NCBI GenBank assembly: GCA_950295325.1
Contig: OX485807.1
Location: forward strand, 43,678,440-43,742,439
Length of the DNA: 64,000 bases
Source of the DNA: Polytrichum commune
Lineage: Eukaryota > Streptophyta > Polytrichopsida > Polytrichales > Polytrichaceae
Direction: 5' to 3'
Below, one piece after another: positions 22,203 to 59,109 of the stretch. How positions within the stretch are numbered: the stretch's first letter is position 1; the number at the start of each line of letters is the position of its first letter. Below the pieces are notes generated by a model. The model was given only the letters and a program-made list of their open reading frames with translations, was not told where the DNA came from and ran no database searches. A program made the position numbers and the translations under genes.

Positions 22203-23627
22203 TTATGTTTCAGACTTGGGGTTGTGTGGTGGGGGATTTGCTACTGGTCCTACTGAAGATCTTTTTTCCGTCAGGAAAGAATTCGTGGCGGCTTCACAAA
22301 CACTGCAGTTACAGCATAGAGGCTCAAGAGAAGCCGAGGAGCCCATTCTAATGGGTCGGGAGCCCGGCAATCGCAGCACATCCAGGCCGTAATCGCAAAT
22401 TGCTTTGTGACGTTTGAGCCAGCTCTTGCCGAGGGTAACGTTGTAGATCTGACCAGGTAAGACGTTGAATTCCTCATAGGTCTCATGGTCGCCGATTTGC
22501 AGCGTTACCAGACACGTGCGTTCGGGGTACTTCTCAATTCGTGTGTTTGCTAGGGTGACTACCAGAGTGTCTCGGGTTAGCCAGGTTTTGAGCTTCAATT
22601 GCTGTGCGAATGTTTCAGTGATTGCTGAGATGGAAGAACCTGTGTCCAGCAGCATGGTCGTCTCTACGCCATTGACGGTACCGCAGATGATGGTCACCGA
22701 CTCATCCGATTCGGGTGTGCAAGGTTCATACGTGGAGCACATCATTTGGGTAGAATCTCGGCTATTATCACATTCGATACCTCCTTCGATTACAAGAGAG
22801 TCTTTCAGCTTCTGCGACTTGGGCATTCTAAAACGCATTTGCGCTCCTTGTCTCGCAGGGGTATGTGACGCTCCGATATTGGCCCCCTCATCTTCGGGTA
22901 ATTGGGCGCTGTGATATGGTTCCTGGAACTGTTTCTCTTGGGTCTCCCGCACCACATCAGCACCAAATCGAAAGGCGGGCTCAGCACTCGACTCGCCAGC
23001 GGTGGCTTCACTTACAGATGTTTGCGATTTAATTCTGTGCAGACTTGAATTAAAAGATGTAGAGTATGATACGTGTCTCACATTATTCCTTCGATTATGA
23101 TCATCACTTCCGCTGGAGGTAGATAATTTGTGAACATTCATCGATGAGAAGCTGGTCGACAGGGAGCTGTCATCCGAAGACCACCTCTCACATCTGTTCT
23201 CATGGCTTCTTGTTGTGCTTCCACCAGCCTTCTCCTCTCTGAAATATTTGAATCCGTTGCTGCGGTCACATTGACCACCAGTGTGCGCTGGGCTGCCACA
23301 AAGCAAACAATATCTCAACGATGCCCGATCACCTGTCACGCTTTGCACACGTCGACTTTTGCACCTCCGTGATTGCCGACCCCCAACTGGATTCACATCA
23401 CACGCTGGACCAGCTGTGCTTACACGAGCTCTCATCCCAACTTGCAGATCTGGGAGAGTGTATTCCGACCAATGCGCAGGTCCTGAATACGAAATCCCTT
23501 TCTTCTTTGAATTCCTTGATTTGCTTGTTGTGCCCTGACCTTCAGAGATTGATTCAGTTCGCTTGTTAGTTTCTTCAGATTCGCCGAGTGGTTTTGGTTC
23601 ATTCACGGAAACCTTCCTGGACGTCAT
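22203..23627 (-). CDS. Stand-alone gag-knuckle and retropepsin protein (474 aa)
   Basis: An uninterrupted intronless frame. The ATG at 23625-23627 is chosen because it is the first in-frame ATG; upstream codons in the frame are few. At residues 107-120 lies CLLCGSPAHTGGQC, a canonical CX2CX4HX4C zinc knuckle. A long Ser-rich linker follows, then a Ty3/gypsy-type aspartic protease: catalytic MLLDTGSSISA (Asp328-Thr-Gly) and, downstream, a characteristic IYNVTLGKSWLKRHKAICDY stretch. Retropepsins of this kind work as homodimers that cleave polyproteins. Reverse transcriptase, RNase H and integrase do not follow; the frame stops at 22203, about 55 residues after the protease. No LTRs were seen. 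It could be a domesticated gag-protease gene or a truncated element. Lack of stops over 474 codons favours constraint or recent origin. A TATA-like ctatttaag (plus-strand reading) lies at 23828-23836. Confidence 0.75.
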   Translation of the reverse strand: MTSRKVSVNEPKPLGESEETNKRTESISEGQGTTSKSRNSKKKGISYSGPAHWSEYTLPDLQVGMRARVSTAGPACDVNPVGGRQSRRCKSRRVQSVTGDRASLRYCLLCGSPAHTGGQCDRSNGFKYFREEKAGGSTTRSHENRCERWSSDDSSLSTSFSSMNVHKLSTSSGSDDHNRRNNVRHVSYSTSFNSSLHRIKSQTSVSEATAGESSAEPAFRFGADVVRETQEKQFQEPYHSAQLPEDEGANIGASHTPARQGAQMRFRMPKSQKLKDSLVIEGGIECDNSRDSTQMMCSTYEPCTPESDESVTIICGTVNGVETTMLLDTGSSISAITETFAQQLKLKTWLTRDTLVVTLANTRIEKYPERTCLVTLQIGDHETYEEFNVLPGQIYNVTLGKSWLKRHKAICDYGLDVLRLPGSRPIRMGSSASLEPLCCNCSVCEAATNSFLTEKRSSVGPVANPPPHNPKSET

Positions 23628-23705
23628 CTTGAAACACAAGACATGTCTGGAAATGCTTCCGATGGCACACTGGCCATCTTTTCTGACTGACTATGGCGAC
23701 GCCAT
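23624..23705 (-). promoter_or_regulatory. Two upstream ORFs before the gag/protease start
   Basis: On the minus strand, an ATG at 23703-23705 opens a 4-codon ORF. A second ATG at 23675-23677 opens a 17-codon ORF whose TGA (23624-23626) overlaps the main ATG (23625-23627) as ATGA. Such overlaps can lower or couple translation. This applies only if transcription starts upstream, for example below the TATA-like motif near 23832. Confidence 0.4.
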
Positions 23706-27984: not shown

Positions 27985-29440
27985 CTACACAAAATATGAT
28001 ATTTAGTGGGACTTACTATGTGGAATTTCACAATGCTACAGTATAAATGCCTACTGTGCATCTCATTTTTTACCAACCATGGTCAAATTGGTTGTTTGGA
28101 CACTGTAGAACATTAACACCTTTACTTGGTAAAAAAAAGTGCATTACTAGTAAAAATATATAGGAACATGTAATTTCGAACAGTAAGTCACACTAAATAT
28201 CTTTATTTGTGTAGTGTTTCCAAATCCCACCGGTTTACATGTTGTGATCTTTAAACTTTTCTTCATTGATTCGAGGTACGTTCCATATATTCCTCTAAAA
28301 ATGTTCCGTAAAATTTCCTACAGTCTTGAACTTCAACCGCTTATTTCTCGAACTCAACTGGTTCATTTTTTACCAACCATGGTCAAATTGGTTGTTTGGA
28401 CACTATAGAACATCAACATCTTTACTTGGTTAAAAAAAAATACATTAATAGTAAAAAGTTAGAGGAACATGTAACTCCGAACGGTAAGTCACACTAAATA
28501 TCATTATTTGTGTAGTGTTTCCCAGTCCCACCGGTTTACATGTTGTGATCTTTCAACTTTTCTTCATTGATTCGAGGTACGTACCATATATTCTTCTAAA
28601 AACGTTCCGTAAATTTGCATGCAGTCTTGAACTTCAACCGGTTATTTCTCAAACTCAACCGGTTCATTTGTAACTAGCCATCCGTAACAATACATTAAAA
28701 AGTACATTAATAATAAAAAAACATAGAAACATGTAACTCCGAACAGTAAGTCACACTAAATGTCATTATTTGTGTAGTATTTCCAAGTCCCACCGGTTCA
28801 CATGTTGTGATCTTTCAACTTTTCTTCATTGATTCGAGGTACGTTCCATATATTCCTCTAAAAATGTTCCATAAATTTTCCTGCAGTCTTGAACTTCAAC
28901 CGGTTATTTCTCAAATTTAAACCCCCCGCTAATCCGTAATAGTACATTAAAAATTACATTAATAGTAAAAAAATACATAGAAACATGTAACTCCGAACAA
29001 CAAGTCACACTAAATATCATTATTTGTGTAGTATTTCCAAGTCCCACCGGTTCACATGTTGTGATCTTTCAGCTTTTTCTTCATCGATTCAAGGTACATT
29101 CCATGCACATATTCCTCTAAAAAATGTTCCGTAAATTTTCCTGCAGTCTTGAACTTCAACCAGTTATTTCTCAAACTTAAACCCCCCGCTAGTCCGTAAT
29201 AGTACATTAAAAAGTACATTAATAGTAAAAAAAATACATAGAAACATGTAACTCCGAACAACAAGTCACACTAAATATCATTATTTGTGTAGTATTTCCA
29301 AGTCCCACCGGTTCACATGTTGTGAGCTTTCAGCTTTTCCTTCATCGATTTGAGGTACGTACGTTCCATGCACATATTCCTCTAAAAAAATGTTCCGTAA
29401 ATTTTCCTGCAGTCTTGAACTTCAACCGGTTATTTCTCAA
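27985..29440 (+). repeat. Tandem array of about 260-bp units (MITE end plus repeat R)
   Basis: Units are marked by taagtcacactaaatat-like words at about 28184, 28483, 28746, 29002 and 29263 (spacing 299, 263, 256, 261). Each unit holds a CTAAATA-type MITE right end (tttgtgtagt), then the R-like core ccaccggttyacatgttgtg and cagtcttgaacttcaacc. The array stops at a C-rich tract at about 29448-29473. Later units are more alike than the first, which suggests expansion toward the right. Confidence 0.75.
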
Positions 29441-29475
29441 ACTTAAACCACCCCCCCCCCCCCCGCCCCCCCCAA

Positions 29476-30060
29476 ATGGCGAGGCCAATTATGTCGTGCC
29501 CGAAGCCTCCCCCACCCCCGAGGACACCATTGTGTCCAAGGAGGCCACACACGGAGCCGAACTCCTTGGAACCGAGTGGGGTGACGGAGTACCGCTCCAC
29601 CATGGCCAACCCCGCCGCGTGCCACGACACTCTCACACGCCGCACTTTCGGCAAGAAGAACTGCACGGGGTTGCCGGCCCCGGACTTCCTCTACCGGGAC
29701 CAAGAGTTCCATGGGCTCGGGCCGGTCCCGTTTTGTGGCCGGTGCGCCACGGAGACGCACGCGTGCACGCACCTTGGCGTGCACGCGTGCGTCAACAACG
29801 CGATCCGGTCGCGATGCAACGGCGAGTACGTGAAGTCGTCGGACGTGATCGGGAGCAACGTCGTCGGCCGCTGCCGCTACGTCAACGACGTCAAGAAACG
29901 GGTGCCGATAACGGACGGCTGCGTCCCTGGCTTCTTCTTCCCGGGGCACCCGCGGCCACAGGAGTACTGCACCCGACCTGGCGCGCCCGGGGCGCCCAGG
30001 GGGGTGGCGTTGGGCGACCAGTTGCGGACCGTGCGGGCTGCTCTGTGGTGTAAGTATTGA
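29476..30060 (+). CDS. GC-rich, cysteine-rich ORF of unknown function (194 aa)
   Basis: An open frame of much higher GC than its surroundings. It starts either at the ATG at 29476, just after a long C tract, or more plausibly at the ATG at 29602 (153 aa). I do not recognise the family. From the second ATG there are 11 cysteines, including FCGRC, ETHAC, VHACVNNAIRSRC, VVGRC, DGCVPG and a last LWC. This spacing suggests a disulphide-bonded extracellular domain, yet no signal peptide is visible, so a 5' exon may be missing. The end reads TGGTGTAAGTATTGA: TGA may be the stop, or GTAAGT a donor with coding continuing. The 3' end is repeated twice downstream. It may be a gene fragment captured by repeats, or a transferred gene. 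Confidence 0.4.
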   Translation: MARPIMSCPKPPPPPRTPLCPRRPHTEPNSLEPSGVTEYRSTMANPAACHDTLTRRTFGKKNCTGLPAPDFLYRDQEFHGLGPVPFCGRCATETHACTHLGVHACVNNAIRSRCNGEYVKSSDVIGSNVVGRCRYVNDVKKRVPITDGCVPGFFFPGHPRPQEYCTRPGAPGAPRGVALGDQLRTVRAALWCKY

Positions 30061-30177
30061 GGTCGTGTTCGTTCAGGTGGTTCTCCGCAAGCCACGACGG
30101 ATCTTATAAACTTTTGTTTTGTAAATGACGGGAAAAAAAAAACAGTGGGGTAGTTGGGGCAAAGAATTGTTGTTCAA

Positions 30178-30416
30178 GTCAAGAAACGGGTGCCAACAGA
30201 CGGCTGTGTCCCTAGCTTCTTCTTCCTGGGGCACCCGCGGCCACAAGAGTACTGCATCGATCCGACCTGGCCTGCCCTGCCCGGGGCGCCTAGTTATGGA
30301 TAGTTAGTCGATGGTGCAGGCTACTCTATGGTGTAAGTATTGAGGTCGTGTTCGTTCAGGTGGTTCTCCGTAAGCTACGACGAATCTTGTAAACCTTCGT
30401 TTTGTAAATGACCCCA

Positions 30417-30469
<53 letters not shown>

Positions 30470-30735
30470 GGGGTAGTTGGGGCAAAGAACCCTAGCTTCT
30501 TCTTCCTGGGGCACCCGCGGCCACAAGAGTACTGCACCCGACTTGGCCTGCCCAGGGCACCCAAGGGGGTGTTGTTGGGCAACCGATTACGGACGGTGCG
30601 TGCTGCTCCATGGTGTAAGTATTGAGGTCGTGTTTGTTTAGGTGTACTCCGTAAGCTACGACAAATCTTATAAAACTTCATTTTGTAAATGATGAAAAAC
30701 AAAAAAAACAGTGGGGTGGTTGGGGCAAAGAACTG
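30178..30735 (+). repeat. Two tandem copies of the 3' end of the GC-rich ORF
   Basis: The segment from aagaaacgggtgcc through cttcttcttc, gtaagtattgaggtcgtgtt and cagtggggtagttggggcaaag recurs at about 30178 and 30485, 280-288 bp apart, after the original at about 29890. Copy 2 still reads DGCVPSFFFLGHPRPQEYC but soon stops; copy 3 has lost its first 40 bases. An (AC)n microsatellite (about 30434-30463) follows a poly-A run in copy 2. Confidence 0.8.
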
Positions 30736-32791
30736 TTATTCAAGTCAAAATGGTTAGTTTGGGCAAGAAAAATCGACTAAATGATAGTACATGTGTTCCC
30801 ATACTTGCAGTTATTATCCCCTTGTTTGTAGTCAAAGACTAGGTACATAACCTTGTCATGTATGGTAGGGTTCGCATATATGATCAATGGAATTGGTACT
30901 AAGACACCTAGGATAACAAAATGTTTTACTTGTATAAATTGGTTGCATGTTTCTCAGCACATCTCTTGTCAACAAAATTAGTGGTGCACATGAGATTTTG
31001 ATATAACTGAGATTCGGATTTGATAAACTTCCAAAAAGGTTAATTTTTTTAAGAAACTCTTTAGTCAACCCTTAAATGCTTTTGGGGACATAAAACAAAT
31101 TGTTCTCTTACAGTGATTTTTTTTTTTTTTTTTTAAATGACTCCTTTTGATTTTGGAAAAGCTAGGTGCGGTAGTGATATGCACTGTATTCTCATCAAAT
31201 CAAATCATGTGTAGATTTGTGGCCTATGGAAATTTTGGCATGTCATAGGGTTGGGCAATTCAGTTAGGCCCTTGCCTAGTCAGGCACTGCTCCAATGTGC
31301 CACCACCCATGTTGTGACATAAGTGATTCCATCTAGCAAGGTGGGTAGCAAAGCCCATCCCAAGGCCTTGGTTTGGATTAAGGGACTTGTCTTGGTAAAA
31401 CAACTTGGGAGCCATCCATGCCCCATTCGCGACCTCTTGTGTTGCCCTTTGCCCATGCATAAAAGTTGAGGCATTTAAAGTATGCATTCATTTGGTTGAA
31501 AGCCACAAGGTCATGGGAACCAACATTAGGGATAATGCATTGCAAACATCGGAAATGAATCACATAACATTACTCGGGAAGGAGCATCCGCATTGTAAGG
31601 CTAGGAATAAGGGTTGTAATACTTCCCCCTTGGTATATGAAATTCCAAGGTCAAGCAACCACTCAAGTTGTGCATTGTTGATACAATAGTATATTTCAAA
31701 AACATTTGAAGTAGACCAATTGAGAAGTGGCCACTAAGGAGTAGACAGTTGTATGCACCCTCTACATAAGATACTATATTTCAAAAAAGCATGGCCCACC
31801 TATCCTCGAGTTTACCATAAAATTATGGGCTCCAAGGCAAGGGTGCAAGTTATGCCTCTTGACAATGTTATACAAATTCAAGTGAAATAATTGCAAATTG
31901 CTTTTCGAAATACTTGGTATTGACATTATGCACAAATTCCTCTATTTTTATTTTTATTTTCAAATTTAACTAATTTAAAATGGAGTTCATCACTTTTTCC
32001 ACTCCAAAAAAACTTGCCAGAGCTAGCCATTTCATACGACCTCCTATGAAAACATCATATTCTACCTAAGGATAATACGTGGATGCCCCCCCCTCCCAAA
32101 AAAAACAAATAAAATAAAATTTGTAGACTCCAAGAAACTCACATTTGTATGATTAAATTTCTCTAAACATTTGTTGTACATGATGTGCCATCAACAAGGA
32201 GAAATTTGCGTGTCAAGCAGAATGCCTATCTTAGAAAGTTTTGGTTCTCAAGAGTCAACCATTATAATTTGACAAAAGTGTGGTGGAGACTTCAACAAAC
32301 ACTATTCTATGGTAAGTACCATAATATGGTAGAAATACATGCATGGTACCAATCAAGGACAATTTATCCTTTTCCAAACATAATCTTTCTTCACAACATT
32401 GCAAAATTTATTTCAAAATAGCATTGGACAATAAAGTCCAAGAGAACGTATCAACTCAAGCTATCATCACCTTTTCTTTGGTGACAACCGGGAGAACATG
32501 GTATTTTGACATAACCCAAAATGGAATGTGGTGGCAAATCTTGAATGCCTTGTTTTTGGTGCTTGCAATTCCCTCCTTGATTTTGGCTAATCCTAAATCC
32601 TAACCACGCCCCTTGTCACCGTGCATCAAACCTCCTTCTCGAACTTGGTCCTCTTCCAAACTCTCTTGGTGAGGATGCTCAAACTCGGACTCCGAAAGGC
32701 TCGCTTAACCTTAGCATCAAATTATGTTTGCATAAAGTAGAGGGATCGAGGGTAGCCTGAAGAGGGATTCACAACATTTGGAGACTAATAA
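30736..32791. other. AT-rich intergenic, no gene called
   Basis: Overlapping short minus-strand frames at 31260-31563 have a region reading NAYFKCLNFYAWAKG that looks vaguely protein-like, but it is broken between frames and has no recognisable domain; it may be a dead transposon gene. The rest shows only short ORFs, a T run at 31118-31134 and a C run near 32087. Confidence 0.35.
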
Positions 32792-36215: not shown

Positions 36216-36910
36216 GCACTGATCATGATTCACTACACGATCATAGACAGTCGTCAGTAATGAAGTGGAAATGTTTGTAAGATTTTCCGCAGTTTGTATT
36301 GCTTTGATTGTTGGAACAATGCAATTGGTACACTACACACGCACACAAAAAAAGGACCGGAGACCAACCCTTGACACAAGGCTCCATCATCTCAGGCAAA
36401 CCTAAGGGGCGGTTTACACCATAGACCATGAACTCATCCCACGGAAGATGCCTTATTCCGCAGTACGAGTTCATGGTCCGAGTTCTTAAAAATTTGATTT
36501 ACAAAGCCGTTGGGCCCCTCACTAGGTGTAAACCGAATGTGGACCAAGAGGAATGACCATGCGGCAAGAAGTGGATGTGCTGATTTTTTTAATATAAGCC
36601 CAAAAAGGGCAGTTTAGGGAAAAAAATGAAGTTTGACCATTTTGTTGACTTAAGTTTGCCTTCACTTATTTTGTCACTTAGTTTTTTCTTCTTTTCGCCT
36701 TAAAATTCAGCAAGTATTGTCGAAATGGGAGAGAGGATGAGGAAACTAGTCGTGCTACTAGGATTGTACATATTTTTGTACATGCCATTAATGAATGTTG
36801 TGGGCATTCAAACACTGATTTTGCAAGGAGAATGGGAAAAATTTGCAATTTTGAGCGTGGTTTACGAAAGCATTGGACATAGAGAGAGGAACATATGGAG
36901 TTAAGAGAGG

Positions 36911-38050
36911 ATGTTAGGTTTTGTGGACCAGTTGCTATTGAGTTCGTGGACGGAGAAAGAATTTAGAAAGCGAACGCGAGTGACATATACGACATTTAGG
37001 TTTTTGTGTGAGAGGTTGGGTCCGTATTTAAAGAAAGAAGATATTTGTTTTAGGGTTACGGTGCCGGTGCAAGAGAGAATAGCGATGTCATTGCATCGGT
37101 TGGATAGTGGTAATGAATTGCAAACCATAGGTGATTTGTATGGAGTACATAAAAACACATTGTCCATAATAGTGAGAGAATTTTGCAGAGCCATGAGAAA
37201 ATATCTTCAACCAATTTTCGTGCAAACTCCAAGTGAATTGCAGTTTAGGGTTTTAGCTTCGAAGTTCGAACAGTTGCACGGAATACCTTACATCATAGGT
37301 GCGATAGATGGATCACATATTCATATTTTAGCTTCTATAATCGGCGGAGAAAATTATTATTGGAGGAAATCATTTCATTCAGCGATTTTGCAAGAAATTG
37401 TTGGACTAAATTGCATGTTTTGGGATTATGAAGTTGGATGGGCAAGTAATTTTCACGATTGGGCAGTATTTCAAGTGACAAAAATTAGACGTACTTGCAT
37501 TGAGGATAAATTCCAGCCATACAAGTTGATAGAAGATGCTGCATATCTGGTAAGGCCTTGGATGTATTATCCATTCAAGGGTGGAAAAACAACGCTATCT
37601 AGGAAAGAGACAAATTGCAATTTCATACAATCTTCGATGAGGATATGTGTAGAGAGAACGTTCAGGATTTTGAAAGGCAGATGGAGGTTGATAATGAAAC
37701 GACATGATGTACCTTTGAGGAATATGCCTGATATTGTAGCAGCTTATATAGTATTGCACAATATATGCATTGTCAATAAAGAAGGTATAGAAGAATAATG
37801 AATTATTGAAGCAGATAGTAAATTAGCTAGAAGAATTATCTAGGGTGAAGTAAGTGAAGGCAGTGAATTACGAGGAGAAAGAGCTGGAATTGCAGAAGTG
37901 CGAAGAAGGATTCTAGCTAAGGAAGATATGCCAATTGCAAACGAAGAAAATGATGCAGAGATAGATTTATTTTTGTTGAGAGAAATTGAGAAGGCCAATA
38001 ATCTTCTACGGGAAGCTATAACGATGCACGAAACATTGGCAAAAAATTTG
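36911..38050 (+). pseudogene. PIF/Harbinger DDE transposase, intact catalytic core, broken C-terminus
   Basis: The frame is open from the ATG at 36911 to 37795. It contains the family's hallmarks in order: FLCERLGPYL and VPVQERIAMSLHRL near the N-terminus, then IIGAIDGSHI (Asp133), FHDWAVF (Asp183) and RICVERTFRILKGRW (Glu248), which form a plausible DDE triad, ending in YIVLHNICIVNKEGIEE. A TAA and TGA at 37796-37801 stop it, but the same frame continues after another TAG at 37841 with GERAGIAEVRRRILAKEDMP up to 38050, as full-length relatives do. So about 80 C-terminal residues are cut off by point mutations. The enzyme would excise and insert the element at TWA targets. Confidence 0.85.
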
Positions 38051-52437: not shown

Positions 52438-54537
52438 AGTAGACAAAATGGTGTTCAGTGAAGTAGACCAAGAAAATACCAAGCCCCATTTTAGATAGTC
52501 TGCTTAAGTAGGTTCACCTCGGTGATACTTGATTACATCATCAATGTAATCTATATACCATGGTGGTCATGGTGGTCAATGCCTCTCGACTCACCATTGT
52601 TTTTTTGCCTAAAATATTAGAAACTTTCCTGAGAAATAAGGTCACATGCCAAGGTTTTTTTCCCAAAACAAACAAAAAAGAGAAGAAACAAATGTGGGGA
52701 GGCAAGGATATGAAGTGCAAAAGGTGGGGATGATGGACATGGAGCCAAGGTAGCGGACATAGCATTGCATGGATGGTGTGTATATATGGTGGGGGTTATA
52801 TATGATGGGCATGGACATGGACATGGACATACATGTATATGACAAGTACACACAAACATGAAGGATTTATGGGCATGGGTTGCATGAATGTACAGGGTTG
52901 AGTTGACAAGGGATATTAATTTACATGCATGAGTGGAACAAGGTGGGACGGCATAGTTGCCAACTAATATCATACATGTACACAATTTTGCACCTATTTC
53001 TCTTCAACATGCACATCTCTAGAAACTTCTTGTGATAGGTTAATCCCCTATTGTAACGTGATGTAAGTTACTAAATTTACCCTATAGTAGGATGTTTGGT
53101 AGTAAGTGTAACTTATATGCAGGAGATTTAGTCATGTGACAATAGCAGTTGGAACAAAACAATCATTTTCCCTATAGTTTCAATTTAGCAATTTTCCACA
53201 TCCTAACTAAGATACTAATTCAAGGGTTGGAATTTGTCATGCATCCTTTGTGATTAGGTGAGCACTGTAGTGGCCATGAGTCATTGTAGTTTGAGAAGAA
53301 TTGAGTTTGAATGCAAGTGAATGTTGCATTCTAAAAAGAATGTGGAGTTTATTCTCACATGAAGTACGTCAAACTGAGGTCTGGCCCAAGGTTGAGATTT
53401 GCACCGTCACAAACTCCAAATGTCCAAAGTCACAACCCCAAATATGTACATGATGCACGTTTGATAGGTGCGATAGGCATTTGATGAGTTTCTAATGGGT
53501 GCAAATCTCAACATTGGGTTGGACCATAAGTTTACGCAATAGAGCTCAAAAGGGAGACATCCCTAATTCAGTTACTTAACCTTAATTAGACACTTATTTT
53601 TTAGTGGTATGTGATTAGATGTGGCTCCAAATATACCAAAAAGACTTGTCTTTACATTGGAATAAGTGTTCAAAATTCAATGACCATTCCAGGCTCAATA
53701 GTCAACATAATTTGGAGGTCCTAAATAATTGTTTAATGGGCATGCGAGGAAAGTGAGTATCGCCTCAATTTGGAATTGCTAGCCATCTTGCGTCAATCAC
53801 ATGTTTCATATCCTAGGAGAGGTGGGCTAGCTGGAAAAAGTAACCATTTAAGACCCATCTACGTTAATCAAAATCAAGTGACTTGTGAGGCTGGAGAAGG
53901 ACAAAATGTGTACCTGTACTGTTACTCATTATAAGACTTGGAGACATAACACTTAGGTGCACTGGATACTTTATCAGATTTTATGCAGCCCATGCAATAT
54001 GCACATACTTATATACAAACTTCTTAGTGTTGGACTTGAACATAAATTTGAATGCATGTCAGCTAGGAACACACCATCCAAGAAGAAATAGCTTTTCTCT
54101 CATCGAAAAACCCCAACACTAATAAGCTTCCAAGGCCATGTGGACTAAGAATTTTGTACAAGGTTGTTCCTTTGTTTTTGCATGAGAATCTTGTACACTC
54201 TTAGGCACAGGCTCTCCAAGTGCATGTAGTTTTTTGAGATTTATATACTTGCTCCAGCAATCAAGGCAACCAGTATAATGTCCACATCATCATTGTTATA
54301 TTCAAACCTTACACCAATATCACCAATTTCAAGTAGAAATGGTTCTGACGTGCAAAAAAATGAGCTGGATTTCCAGGGGAAAACACATATACTGTACATA
54401 TCTGTGGCACTAAAAACGCACAAGCATTGGCAGAGGTTTTTTGTGTTTTGTTTTTTGAGATAAAAGGCCAACAAGCCAGTGCCAAAGAAGTGCTGGCATA
54501 CTTCACACTGACAATCAGTGGATCTGCGACTGATTGC
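52438..54537. other. Intergenic between convergent genes
   Basis: Holds the 3' flank of the acyl-activating enzyme gene on the left and that of the PSB33/LIL8 gene on the right. A (GGACAT)n run lies at about 52807-52832. Short minus-strand ORFs across it are low-complexity. No third gene was found. Confidence 0.5.
53380..53540. repeat. Hairpin-forming inverted repeat, probable MITE
   Basis: The left arm aggttgagatttgcacc is matched on the right by gggtgcaaatctcaacattg in reverse complement, with further pairing of ggtctggccca against tgggttggacc. Total about 155 bp with a loop containing two gataggtgcgataggca-like words. Confidence 0.6.
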
Positions 54538-57500
54538 TCAAGGAGAGTATCCATTGAACACAAATTTGTAAAGAAAGTCTAGGAATCCAATACCTTTCAA
54601 GAAACCCTTGCCAGACACCAACTCTTGGACCACAATCATGAAGAAGCCAATCATGGCTGCCCTTCCATTGATGATCTCATTCTTTCGAGTAAAACCAAAG
54701 CCTTTCTCGTTGTCATCCACAACCATGCGCACCTGCAATAAACAACCACAAGAGGAACAACAAATATCCTTGTAAGCACCGGGGTTCAGACAACACTTTG
54801 GATGCATTAACACTAAGGACCAAGACCAAAGAAACTCCCAAACCCATCAATCCTATTGGTCAAGAGGTAATTTTGGAGATAATACACCTAATGTAGACCC
54901 ACCCTTGCAGATGAAGGAACCAGTACACCACAGAATAAGAATCAAGCAAATTGTTGGATGCTAAATGAATTGTTGCAATGCTGCAAAGCATTTGCAAAAC
55001 CGCTAGGTATTGCATCAGAGAGAGAGCCTCAATTTAACAAGCATATAAAATTCACTGTTTTTCATTTTCTTGACGTGTAAAGTTTGCCAACTGGGCATTC
55101 TGACGACATAAAAATTTAACAGGAGATAGTCACCTCATCGACATCAACATTTGTAGCCGTTTTGCCAGCCTGCGTGGTGCCACCGAAAACAATCTCAGCT
55201 GACTCTCCAGTTCTCCCTGCCACGTTGATGTAAATAGATTCCGACTCGATTTTCACGGAATATGTTTGTAGATCCCTCAATGAGGGTGTCAAAACTCTCA
55301 GTACGGGGTTTGTGGGCATCCAGTCCTTCACTTTCCCGGTCTTCAAGTCGTATGTGCTTTCTGTTGACGGGCAAACGATGCACCCATCCTGTTGCTCCAA
55401 AAACGGAAGGTCAAGGGCCTTTAGAATCAGCCATTGTCCAAAATCATAGAGGCTTGCTAGAATCTCAAACCAAAACACTAGACAACATATCAGAGAATTT
55501 CTCCATGCCAATGCAGCATCACAAACCTCTAGATCCATACATCAACGGTAATGTCACATTGATTCAATCGCATCAAACTATAACATTGAATCAATGCCTA
55601 CCAGACAAAGGGTTGCAATTTTTATCTTTTGTTTGCAATACCTAAAAGGTCAAATATATCAAAATGAGTTGAATCAATAGCTAAATGTTGAGGTAGCACT
55701 GTGAAGATATTAAGCCCCGCAGGGTATGTGACAACGCTGACTCGCATTAAATGCTGGCCACTTGCATTTTGAGATGAGGTTGCATCAGGCCCCAAGGGTA
55801 TTCCATTGGGCATTGAGGCTCTGAAGAGGGATCTCTATTCTTACAGAAATTTAATTTTTCCCTCGAATTCTGCCTAATGCCATTCCTGAATAGGCTAAGA
55901 CCACTTCAATCCCAAGTGGAAACTACATTCCGGTTTCCACATTTTGGCACTAGTAAAGATGACATAGAGTATCCTCTACGGTACTCAAAACGAGAAACAC
56001 CTGTGCACCGTTACAGAATCCAAAACTCAGCTGCATGGTTCGCGACCTCCTTGTGTACATACATCATCTGCCAATTGCACATAAGGCGAACAATCTAACC
56101 CTGACGCAGGAAGAGAATGCCATGCCAATGCAGGGTTGCAATTGGCCCTTAGAATATTCCCACGGGCATTGAAGCTCTAAAGAGGGCTCTCTGTTCGGAC
56201 ATGGAAAAAAAAAAATCCCACGTGTCGTTCCTACGTTGCCTAGAACTCATTTGAATCCCACGTGGAAACTAAATTCCGGCACGAGTAAAGATGAAATAGA
56301 GAGTCCTCTACGGTACTCGTAACGAGAGACACCTACGCACAATTACAAAATCCAAAACTCAGTTTAGTCATTCTGCAGAGTTTCTCCCACCCATACAAAT
56401 TGTCAATTGCACGAAAGAAGAACGATCTATCCCCGTCGCAGGAAGAGAAAGAATGCGAGCAGCTACTCACGGGAGTGAGGCGCAGGTTAAAGAGTCTCTT
56501 GCTGTAACCTCCTTCGGTAGGACTCTGATTCTAGATGGCTCTGATTCTAGAATGCCACATAGCATTCCAACATTGGCTCAGGCCACTGGAATCTCACTTG
56601 GATACTACGTCCAGGCAACCTACGCAAATTTACATTCTGCAGAGTCTCTCTAGCCCATACATCTGCCAATTGCACGAATGAAGGAGAATCTAACCATGAC
56701 CCAGGGACGACTACTCACAGCACTCAGGCGCGCATTGATGAGCTCCTGGCAGGAAGCCCCTTCAGCGGGGCTCTAATTCTCGACGTCTCTCTATTCCGCA
56801 CACGTACCATTCCTGCATTTGCTAAGAGACATTCGGATCCCACGTGTAAACTACATTCCGGCACTGGTAAAGATGAAAGAGAGCGTCCTCAACGGTCCTC
56901 GCAACGAAAGATACCTACGCAATTGCAGAATCCAGAAATCTCTTGAATGATTCTGCAAAGTTTCTCACACCCATACATCTGCCAATTGCACGAAGAAGAA
57001 CGAACTAAACCTGACGCAGGGAGAAGAGAGTGAGAATGCGAGAACGACAACTCACGGGAGTAAGACTCGCATTGATAAGCTCCTCGCTGTAAGCTCCTTC
57101 TGCAGGGCGCTGATTCTCTAAATAGGGGTCTCTATTCTAAATAGGGGCCAAATGCCACTCCTACATTGGCTAAGACGAATTGAATCCCAAGTGGAAACTA
57201 CATTCCTGCACTAATAAAGATGAAATACCGTGAACATAACGAGGGATACTTACGCACGAAAATACAATCCGAAACTCTGTTGTACGATTTGCGAGGCACT
57301 TATATCCACACCTCACTCTGCCAATTGCATGACAAAAGAACAATCTAAGCTAACCCTGACGCAGGAAGAGAGAGAATGCGAGAGCGAATGCTCACGGGAG
57401 TCAGACGCGCATTGACGAGCCCCTCGCTGTAAGCACCTTCGGCGGGGCTCTGATTCTCGATGGCGTACACATCGTTCTTGTACCAGAGCAGAAGCACCGT

Positions 57501-57830
57501 CTCGCCATCCTGCCTCACCAGACGCCTCTCCCCCTTGGGCAACGCGTTGACAGGGATGACGGGCACCCAGTTCCCTCCGCCAGCTTGCGCAGCAGGAGAC
57601 TCCGCCTCGCCACTCGAGACCGAAACATCGCCGCTGGAACTGCACACCACCACCACCGCAACTCCTCCTCTTCCCTGCGACCTCGATTTCTTGCTGCTTG
57701 CGCTCAAATTGCTCAATTTCCTGCTGCTTGAGCTCAGAGACGCGACGGAGCTCGAGGCTTCCGAGCTGCACGAGGCCCTCGTCGTCGGAAACGCCCCGAG
57801 CAAGGGCTGCAGGGTCGCCATGGTCGCCAT
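54538..57830 (-). CDS. PSB33: PSB33/LIL8-type chloroplast thylakoid protein (294 aa, 3 exons)
   Basis: Exons on the minus strand: 57830-57396, 55388-55134 and 54732-54538; phases are all zero and join cleanly. The start is the ATG at 57828-57830 (a second follows three codons on). Residues 1 to about 60 are Ser-rich and basic with few acids, as in a chloroplast transit peptide, ending near GGVAVVVVCSS. Next is a Rieske-like fold (NWVPVIPVNALPKGERRLV, GETVLLLWYKNDVYAIENQS, DGCIVCP) without the full Cys/His iron-sulphur ligand set, which is typical of PSB33. The C-terminus has one membrane segment with a light-harvesting-like motif, NEIINGRAAMIGF, then GKGFLKGIGFLDFLYKF. The Arabidopsis protein (At1g71500, 287 aa) helps maintain PSII-LHCII under changing light. 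Intron 1 (55389-57395) carries duplicated exon-1 ends. Confidence 0.92.
55790..57458 (-). repeat. Tandem array spanning the exon 1/intron 1 junction of PSB33/LIL8
   Basis: Units of about 340 bp are marked (plus-strand reading) by aatcccaagtggaaactaca-like words at about 55909, 56254, 56590, 56835 and 57182. Four units also contain an exon-1-end module. The real one is at 57458-57396. Copies lie at 57118-57056 (open), 56781-56719 (one stop) and 56533-56471 (first codon is a stop, the rest open). Each copy ends at a GT donor. Confidence 0.85.
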
Positions 57831-59109
57831 CGCTACCAAAACCTTAACCTAAATTTGTGCGAAACAGGATTTCGAAAACCCGGGATGGATTGCGTCTCTG
57901 TACTAAGTTACTTGAGATTCGTCGCGCGGGGAAGGCATTGGGGACGATGAGTCCCTCAAGTCCTCTAGCGTGGGGGCCCTGGGGAGCAGCCACGTGGCGA
58001 AGTGGGTGCCAGTACTCTGTTGTGGATGGGGAGCACAATCTTTCCTAATTTTCAAATGGCCAGGGCTAGATGTCTTGCTCTTTCAGCTGGGCCCCCACCA
58101 ATCTTACCTACAAAGGCTTAGTTAGATGGGCCTTATTATTTGGTTACATTTTGTTGTTTGTTTCCTTACATTACTTGGATCCAAAAGGTTGAAATTTAGA
58201 TCCATGTGGCTCGGAATTCAGCATGCATTCATATAACATTTTGGAGTTGACCTTGGATTATAATTGAATTATCAATGTTCATTGGTATTGAGCCATAGCT
58301 AGGAAGGTCACACAGATCACCCGAGTTATGTCCATTATTAAGTCTAGAATGGTTTACAAATTTTGAGCACATAGTCCAATCTCTTTTCTAGCATATATCT
58401 TTATGGTGTTCATTCTAAGATATGCACCATGCGCAATAACCACAAACCACTCAAATATAGGTGTTTGATTAAGATAAATAGCCATATTAGGCTCGCTTGT
58501 CATAAAGGTGGGTTTACGTTGAGGTTTAAGACCAAGTGAACTCTGAAGGTGGTGCATTAACATGTGCATATTAGAACTCCAAGATTTGATAATGAATATA
58601 AGCCTAGCATGCAAGCTTTGTATAAACAACACACATGGTCCACATGTATAATTTCTTTGAGCAAGCTTTCAACTATCTTCAATTTCAAGCACTATGTAAA
58701 AATCAATTAGTCCTTCCTCATAGAGTTCTCCATAAAGTAATATTGTGTTTAAGGGGAATTTGGATCCTCCAAAGTGGGTTTTGGAGGCGAGAATGAGTTA
58801 GTCTGGAAAATAAAGGACACTTTAGATAACCATATATGCAATTTGTGTATAATAAAGCATATGACTTGAATAACAAGAGGGTGGCATCTAATGAACTAGA
58901 CGGAGGGGAGGATGTCACCTTGGCCCAAATTGATGAGGGTGATGTCCATTATGCCGGATGGTTCATTAACTCAAACTTAAGACTCAGCCCAAACTGGCGG
59001 ATTATCTCTTCGGAGAGAAGTTCTCCTCAAAACTCATGCAATAATTACTCGGGCCTTTTGCCAATTCTATACACTCTACCCTCCCTAATATCATGCATGT
59101 GGCAACCAA
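57831..59109. other. Upstream region of PSB33/LIL8 and intergenic
   Basis: About 57840-58045 is GC-richer and is the likely promoter and leader of the minus-strand gene; no TATA box is evident. Beyond it the DNA turns AT-rich. A plus ORF at 58836-59126 has no recognisable domain. Confidence 0.4.

Follow-up and report, generated by a model that had tools for sequence, protein, structure and literature searches.

In the potato RdRp gene, the available excerpt of PMC4974935 describes a tandem duplication of the intron/exon 2 boundary from which a new intron arose, and a passage of the same paper cites Gao and Lynch (2009) on internal tandem gene duplications that cross exon-intron boundaries. 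In Drosophila, introns are described as having arisen from tandemly duplicated proto-splice sites (excerpt of PMC2891723), and an intragenic duplication in the fish dmrt1 gene is a related case (excerpt of PMC7605655). Tandem repeats seeded by MITEs are also on record, microhomology-mediated joining being named as one route in the part of PMC9659126 available. In the open-licence literature searched, no publication on a duplicated donor array in PSB33 was found.

The array analyzed here lies in intron 1 of a PSB33/LIL8-like gene of Polytrichum commune. As in potato RdRp, the duplicated segment reaches across an exon-intron boundary and includes splice signals as well as coding sequence. On the other hand, the potato duplication, as described in the excerpt, affected the acceptor side and gave a new intron, whereas in the PSB33/LIL8-like gene it was the donor-side boundary that was multiplied, at least three times and with a MITE included, and nothing indicates a new intron. 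The Drosophila case is similar in that a splice-site sequence was duplicated inside a gene, but there, according to the excerpt, the duplicated segment is coding and becomes intron, whereas the PSB33/LIL8-like copies fell inside an existing intron. The array shares with the MITE-seeded repeats a MITE in every repeat unit; it differs from the MITE-seeded satellites of that excerpt in that the unit consists of host exon end, intron and MITE, at one locus and in five units. We regard it as a further case of tandem duplication across an exon-intron boundary, on the donor side and with several units and a MITE, in which no new intron seems to have formed.

The coordinates of the gene and of the array are given in Table 1 as positions in the window, that is, the whole stretch of 64,000 nucleotides analyzed; the gene is read on the minus strand.

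Table 1. Gene, array and element features in the window
Feature	Position	Strand	Remarks
Exon 1, PSB33/LIL8-like gene	57396..57830	-	435 nt, phase 0 at end; Pfam match spans exon 1/2 joint
Source of the copies: last 21 codons (63 nt) of exon 1	57396..57458	-	reads ENQSPAEGAYSEGLVNARLTP, followed by GTGAGC
Real donor GTGAGC	57395-57390	-	end of exon 1
Intron 1	57395-55389	-	2007 nt, contains the tandem array
Unit M1	57458-57119	-	starts with the real exon end
MITE core, unit M1	57119..57227	-	5' terminal repeat lost, internal deletion
Exon-end copy M2	57056..57118	-	reads ENQRPAEGAYSEELINASLTP; all 21 codons open; followed by GTGAGT (57055-57050)
Unit M2	57118-56782	-	starts with exon-end copy M2
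MITE copy, unit M2	56787..56896	-	3' end truncated; boundaries by eye
Exon-end copy M3	56719..56781	-	one stop, at codon 3; followed by GTGAGT
Unit M3	56781-56534	-	internal deletions
Exon-end copy M4	56471..56533	-	stop at codon 1 only; followed by GTGAGT
Unit M4	56533-56180	-	starts with exon-end copy M4
MITE copy, unit M4	56178..56315	-	both terminal repeats; boundaries within about 2 nt
GAGCTTCAATGCCC, candidate breakpoint homology	56164..56177 (also 55821-55808)	-	just past the M4 MITE; 10/14 with exon GAGAATCAGAGCCC
Unit M5	55830..56179	-	intron-start and MITE parts; no recognisable 63-nt exon copy
MITE copy, unit M5	55822..55983	-	both terminal repeats; boundaries within about 2 nt
Exon 2	55134..55388	-	joined to exon 1 via acceptor ...CAACAG/GATGGG
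Exon 3	54538..54732	-	up to stop codon 54540-54538; by eye; Chloroa_b-bind match

For the Pfam search the protein was spliced and typed manually, and it lacks one glycine present in the exon 1 translation. This single protein contained both a Rieske_2 (E 2e-20) and a Chloroa_b-bind (E 3e-6) match, supporting the assignment of the gene to PSB33/LIL8 in the original prediction. The available excerpt of PMC8003979 describes PSB33 as a transmembrane thylakoid protein in which Fe-S cluster binding is highly uncertain. The Rieske_2 match covered profile positions 1-103 of 104 and crossed the exon 1/2 joint without any of the copies, which speaks against intron gain by tandem duplication. No Rfam match that would indicate an RNA gene in the intron was obtained across 53500-58500.

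The three exon-end copies, with their coordinates, reading frames and GTGAGT donors, proved exact on re-reading. They lie in head-to-tail units that hold the exon end and the intron start, within one gene and at a single locus, so the exon-intron junction was indeed multiplied, as had been proposed. The view that every later unit contains an exon copy held for three of the four; the unit at 56179-55830 is the one without a recognisable 63-nt copy. The first 44 nt of this unit aligned to the exon with a score reached by 105 of 2000 shuffles, and the homologous stretch that follows the unit with a score reached by 844 of 2000. The start-to-start distances of the exon ends were 340, 337 and 248 bp, the third unit being short because of internal deletions, and the M3 and M4 copies extend a few nucleotides beyond the last 63 nt of exon 1. 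The copied donors were also correctly described as better than the real one, since GTGAGT fits the consensus at +6 and GTGAGC does not.

Self-matches within the array had E-values from 8e-65 to 3e-6, and in a search of the whole genome (assembly of 407.8 Mb in 64 contigs) the exon matched the copy at 57118-57056 with 86% identity (E 8e-12), indicating that the tandem copies are not due to chance. This exon-end search returned two matches, both in the PSB33/LIL8-like gene, from the one candidate region scored; a dispersed origin of the exon copies was rejected, the exon matches lying at this gene alone. The units differed by 14-52%, depending on the pair and the part compared, and the MITE parts by 24% (147 of 611 sites over the six pairs formed by the units other than the shortened third one), which makes an assembly artefact unlikely.

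A second tandem array is present in the window at 29890-30748 (+), about 27 kb from the PSB33/LIL8-like array. It repeats the end of an ORF at 29419-30060 (stop to stop) for which no Pfam match was found; its units share 73-85% identity, with copies such as VKKRVPTDGCVPSFFFLGHPRPQEYC. The multiplication of ORF or exon ends may thus not be rare in this genome, although two cases are too few to show it. The window also contains a DDE_Tnp_4 transposase-like ORF at 36908-37795 (+) and a gag-type aspartyl protease ORF at 22206-23690 (-). Elsewhere in the assembly, rbcL fragments were observed at G000 C3:14137891-14138196 and C2:70106055-70106189, in addition to a plastid-type rbcL on contig C8; the fragments outside C8 are probably plastid DNA in the nucleus.

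All five units carry a whole or partial copy of a dispersed MITE-like element, and MITE-derived sequence lies upstream of each exon-end copy. When the genome was searched with the intron part of unit M1, 42 matches were scored (from 40 of 248 candidates), four in the array and 38 elsewhere; among the matches listed, all 38 outside the array fall in query positions 169-249. The element, defined from 20 aligned loci with their flanks and three window copies, is about 130-165 bp long and has inverted ends, the column consensus beginning with TACCATAGAGGGC and closing with GCCCTCTATGGTA. A mid-element pattern matched the genome 584 times with at most two mismatches, compared with one match for the reversed control. 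Like a MITE, the element is short, dispersed, present in many copies, devoid of coding capacity and bounded by terminal inverted repeats. At the 16 loci that could be scored (20 non-array loci, of which four were dropped as the 3' or 5' end could not be placed), TA preceded the 5' repeat in 10, followed the 3' repeat in nine and did both in six; a Tc1/mariner type is only a lead.

Among the matches listed, no second element was found within 2 kb at any of the 38 places outside the array, nor did any of the 20 non-array loci retrieved have another copy nearby. The element alone therefore does not make arrays at these places, and the MITE as a general cause of arrays was not supported. As far as these lists reach, the array is particular to the PSB33/LIL8-like locus. 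At one dispersed locus (L005, 841-1398) a separate 246-bp tandem repeat of 2.3 copies lies beside, not across, a copy of the element.

The copied exon ends start at or near the 3' end of the MITE: the M1/M2 junction lies directly at the element end, the M2/M3 junction after a shortened element end, and the M3/M4 junction after a shortened element and a 16-nt stutter. Because the sequences upstream of the junctions are not identical, one breakpoint cannot account for all of them. The copies start at the exon 14-mer listed in Table 1. In the 2007 nt of the intron, six sites matched this 14-mer at nine or more positions; four are in exon copies or fragments, and the remaining two lie exactly past the M4 and M5 MITE ends, with 10 of 14 matches (chance per position 1.5e-4). 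These two sites are consistent with tandem duplication through short homology between the exon and the flank of the element. However, a second stretch of the exon is also similar to the start of M5, and alignment scores do not distinguish flank from degraded copy; what looks like breakpoint homology may instead be what is left of an exon copy.

Unit M5 starts differently from the other units, and the 14-mer CTGCATTGGCATGG occurs both at its start (56133) and 600 nt downstream at 55516 (-); the array therefore probably went through more than one round of duplication, or was patched later. AATTGCAACCCT is likewise present at 56143 and 55620 (-), and these recurrences perhaps reflect template switching. 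M2-M4 group together in the B part of the units but not in the MITE parts.

The best reading of these observations is that a segment comprising exon end, donor, intron start and MITE was duplicated in tandem and then decayed. The tandem duplication and its repetition are evident from the unit structure, and we infer the order of events. The MITE-like element would first have inserted into intron 1, after which the stretch that begins with the final 21 codons of exon 1, includes the donor and closes at the 3' end of the element would have been duplicated in tandem, repeatedly. The breakpoints may have been determined by short imperfect homology between the exon 14-mer GAGAATCAGAGCCC and the 3' flank of the element, GAGCTTCAATGCCC. 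Use of the upstream exon end and donor presumably continued, since they alone preserve the frame and lead into a normal Rieske-like domain. The downstream exon ends would have become intron and, as far as the small numbers tested suggest, drifted without coding constraint, the spliceosome most likely skipping them as weak pseudo-exons.

Divergence among the copies does not agree with the suggestion that they are recent, since the MITE parts differ by 24%; the exon-end copies look old. Plant sequences change at about 7e-9 substitutions per site per year. At this rate, the K2P distance of the MITE parts, near 0.3, corresponds to a unit age of some 20 million years, as an order of magnitude only.

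Private changes were scored as departures from the majority, limited to sites with agreement among three or more of the four exon ends. The real exon had none and the copies had 3, 6 and 10. Of these 19 changes 13 were nonsynonymous and six synonymous, compared with an expected synonymous share of 0.27 (about five; p 0.61). The proposed comparison of synonymous and nonsynonymous differences among the modules, once run, thus revealed neutral divergence. Preserved frames had been taken as a sign that some copies are used; with two of the three copies interrupted by stops, however, the fully open frames number one, compared with 2.1-2.5 of three expected under random substitution of an open frame, and this together with the ratio of nonsynonymous to synonymous changes does not bear out the suggestion. 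The copies carry no clear coding constraint in their sequence.

Exon and intron parts were also compared between units, with Fisher tests that treat dependent pairs as independent; the copies differ from each other in the exon part at least as much as in the intron. Among the copies, 57 of 189 exon sites differed compared with 72 of 367 intron-start sites (p 0.006, dependent pairs), and for M2-M4 alone the figures were 19 of 63 and 59 of 267 (p 0.19). The real exon was closer to M2 in the exon part (9 of 63 sites) than in the intron part (76 of 256; p 0.016), the codon differences being five synonymous and four nonsynonymous, whereas for M4 the values were 16 of 63 and 84 of 267 (p 0.37). The closeness of the real exon to M2 can be explained by constraint on the real exon alone, and some constraint on M2 could also be its source. 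GTGAG was retained in all three copies (chance under neutral rates 0.04-0.20), and slight retention of this motif may have occurred.

The reading frame past the real donor continues for 16 codons and stops at 57347. If exon 1 ended at one of the copied donors instead, this early in-frame stop would therefore be included, which makes it the simpler reading that splicing ignores the decoy donors. Taken with the results above, the array is very probably a passive intron scar, left by repeated tandem duplication and subsequent drift without coding constraint, with the copies most likely skipped.

That the open copy M2 (57118-57056) is a MITE-born cassette exon with its donor at 57055, giving an isoform with a repeat of 20 or 27 residues in the Rieske-like domain, appears very unlikely. 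Candidate acceptors in the MITE sequence would lie immediately after TTTGGCCCCTATTTAG, giving an 81-nt exon (27 residues), and after TATTTAGAG, giving a 60-nt exon (20 residues); both predicted exons are open, multiples of three and in frame, the donor fits the consensus at one more base than the real donor does, and the entire copy is open. However, shuffled upstream sequences all gave an in-frame open exon too, for each of the three copies, a control that was saturated because an AG inside the copy suffices. In addition, the private changes of M2 (two nonsynonymous, one synonymous) gave no sign of constraint, and the cassette would add a 20-residue repeat to a fold whose profile is matched without the insertion.

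Occasional use of the copied donors as late ends of exon 1, with the early-stop transcripts destroyed and the output of the gene thereby tuned, is also very unlikely. It would draw on three strong GTGAGT sites, each leading to the stop at 57347, but the real donor lies upstream, in a GC-rich exon (0.63, against 0.45 in the intron), and the retention of GTGAG is within neutral chance.

An intron enhancer in the repeated units is the least probable of these. About 50 intron-start columns (CTTCCTGCGTCAGGG..GTGCAATTGGCAG; 57365-57318 and copies, e.g. 56078) are alike in all five units, with 93 differences in 470 compared with 269 in 739 in the next stretch, and the longest run of columns common to at least four of the five units was 21, a length reached by 72 of 5000 column shuffles. 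These figures favour an enhancer weakly, however: the stretch is little more conserved than the MITE parts (238 of 899, the neutral yardstick) and was chosen after inspection. Its sequence is rich in pyrimidines and has an acceptor-like CAG at its end. Tandem exon duplication with alternative splicing, which likewise presents several exon-like copies in series, was rejected, as only the 3' end of the first exon (its last 63 nt, or slightly more) was copied, without a native acceptor, and the copies gave no sign of coding constraint.

The passive scar remains the reading that we prefer. What is new relative to the original prediction is the dispersed MITE-like element in every unit, with the copied exon ends at or near its 3' end, and the array shows a MITE as part of a duplication unit of exon end and donor. 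Judged from the sequence, the copies look decayed and unused, and the array is an instructive, mostly ordinary scar. Copies drifting as intron provide a good example of how such duplications can be tolerated and point to no new mechanism. With one donor and exon end multiplied at least three times inside an intron, the locus is a natural test of how splicing picks the first among several near-equal donors.
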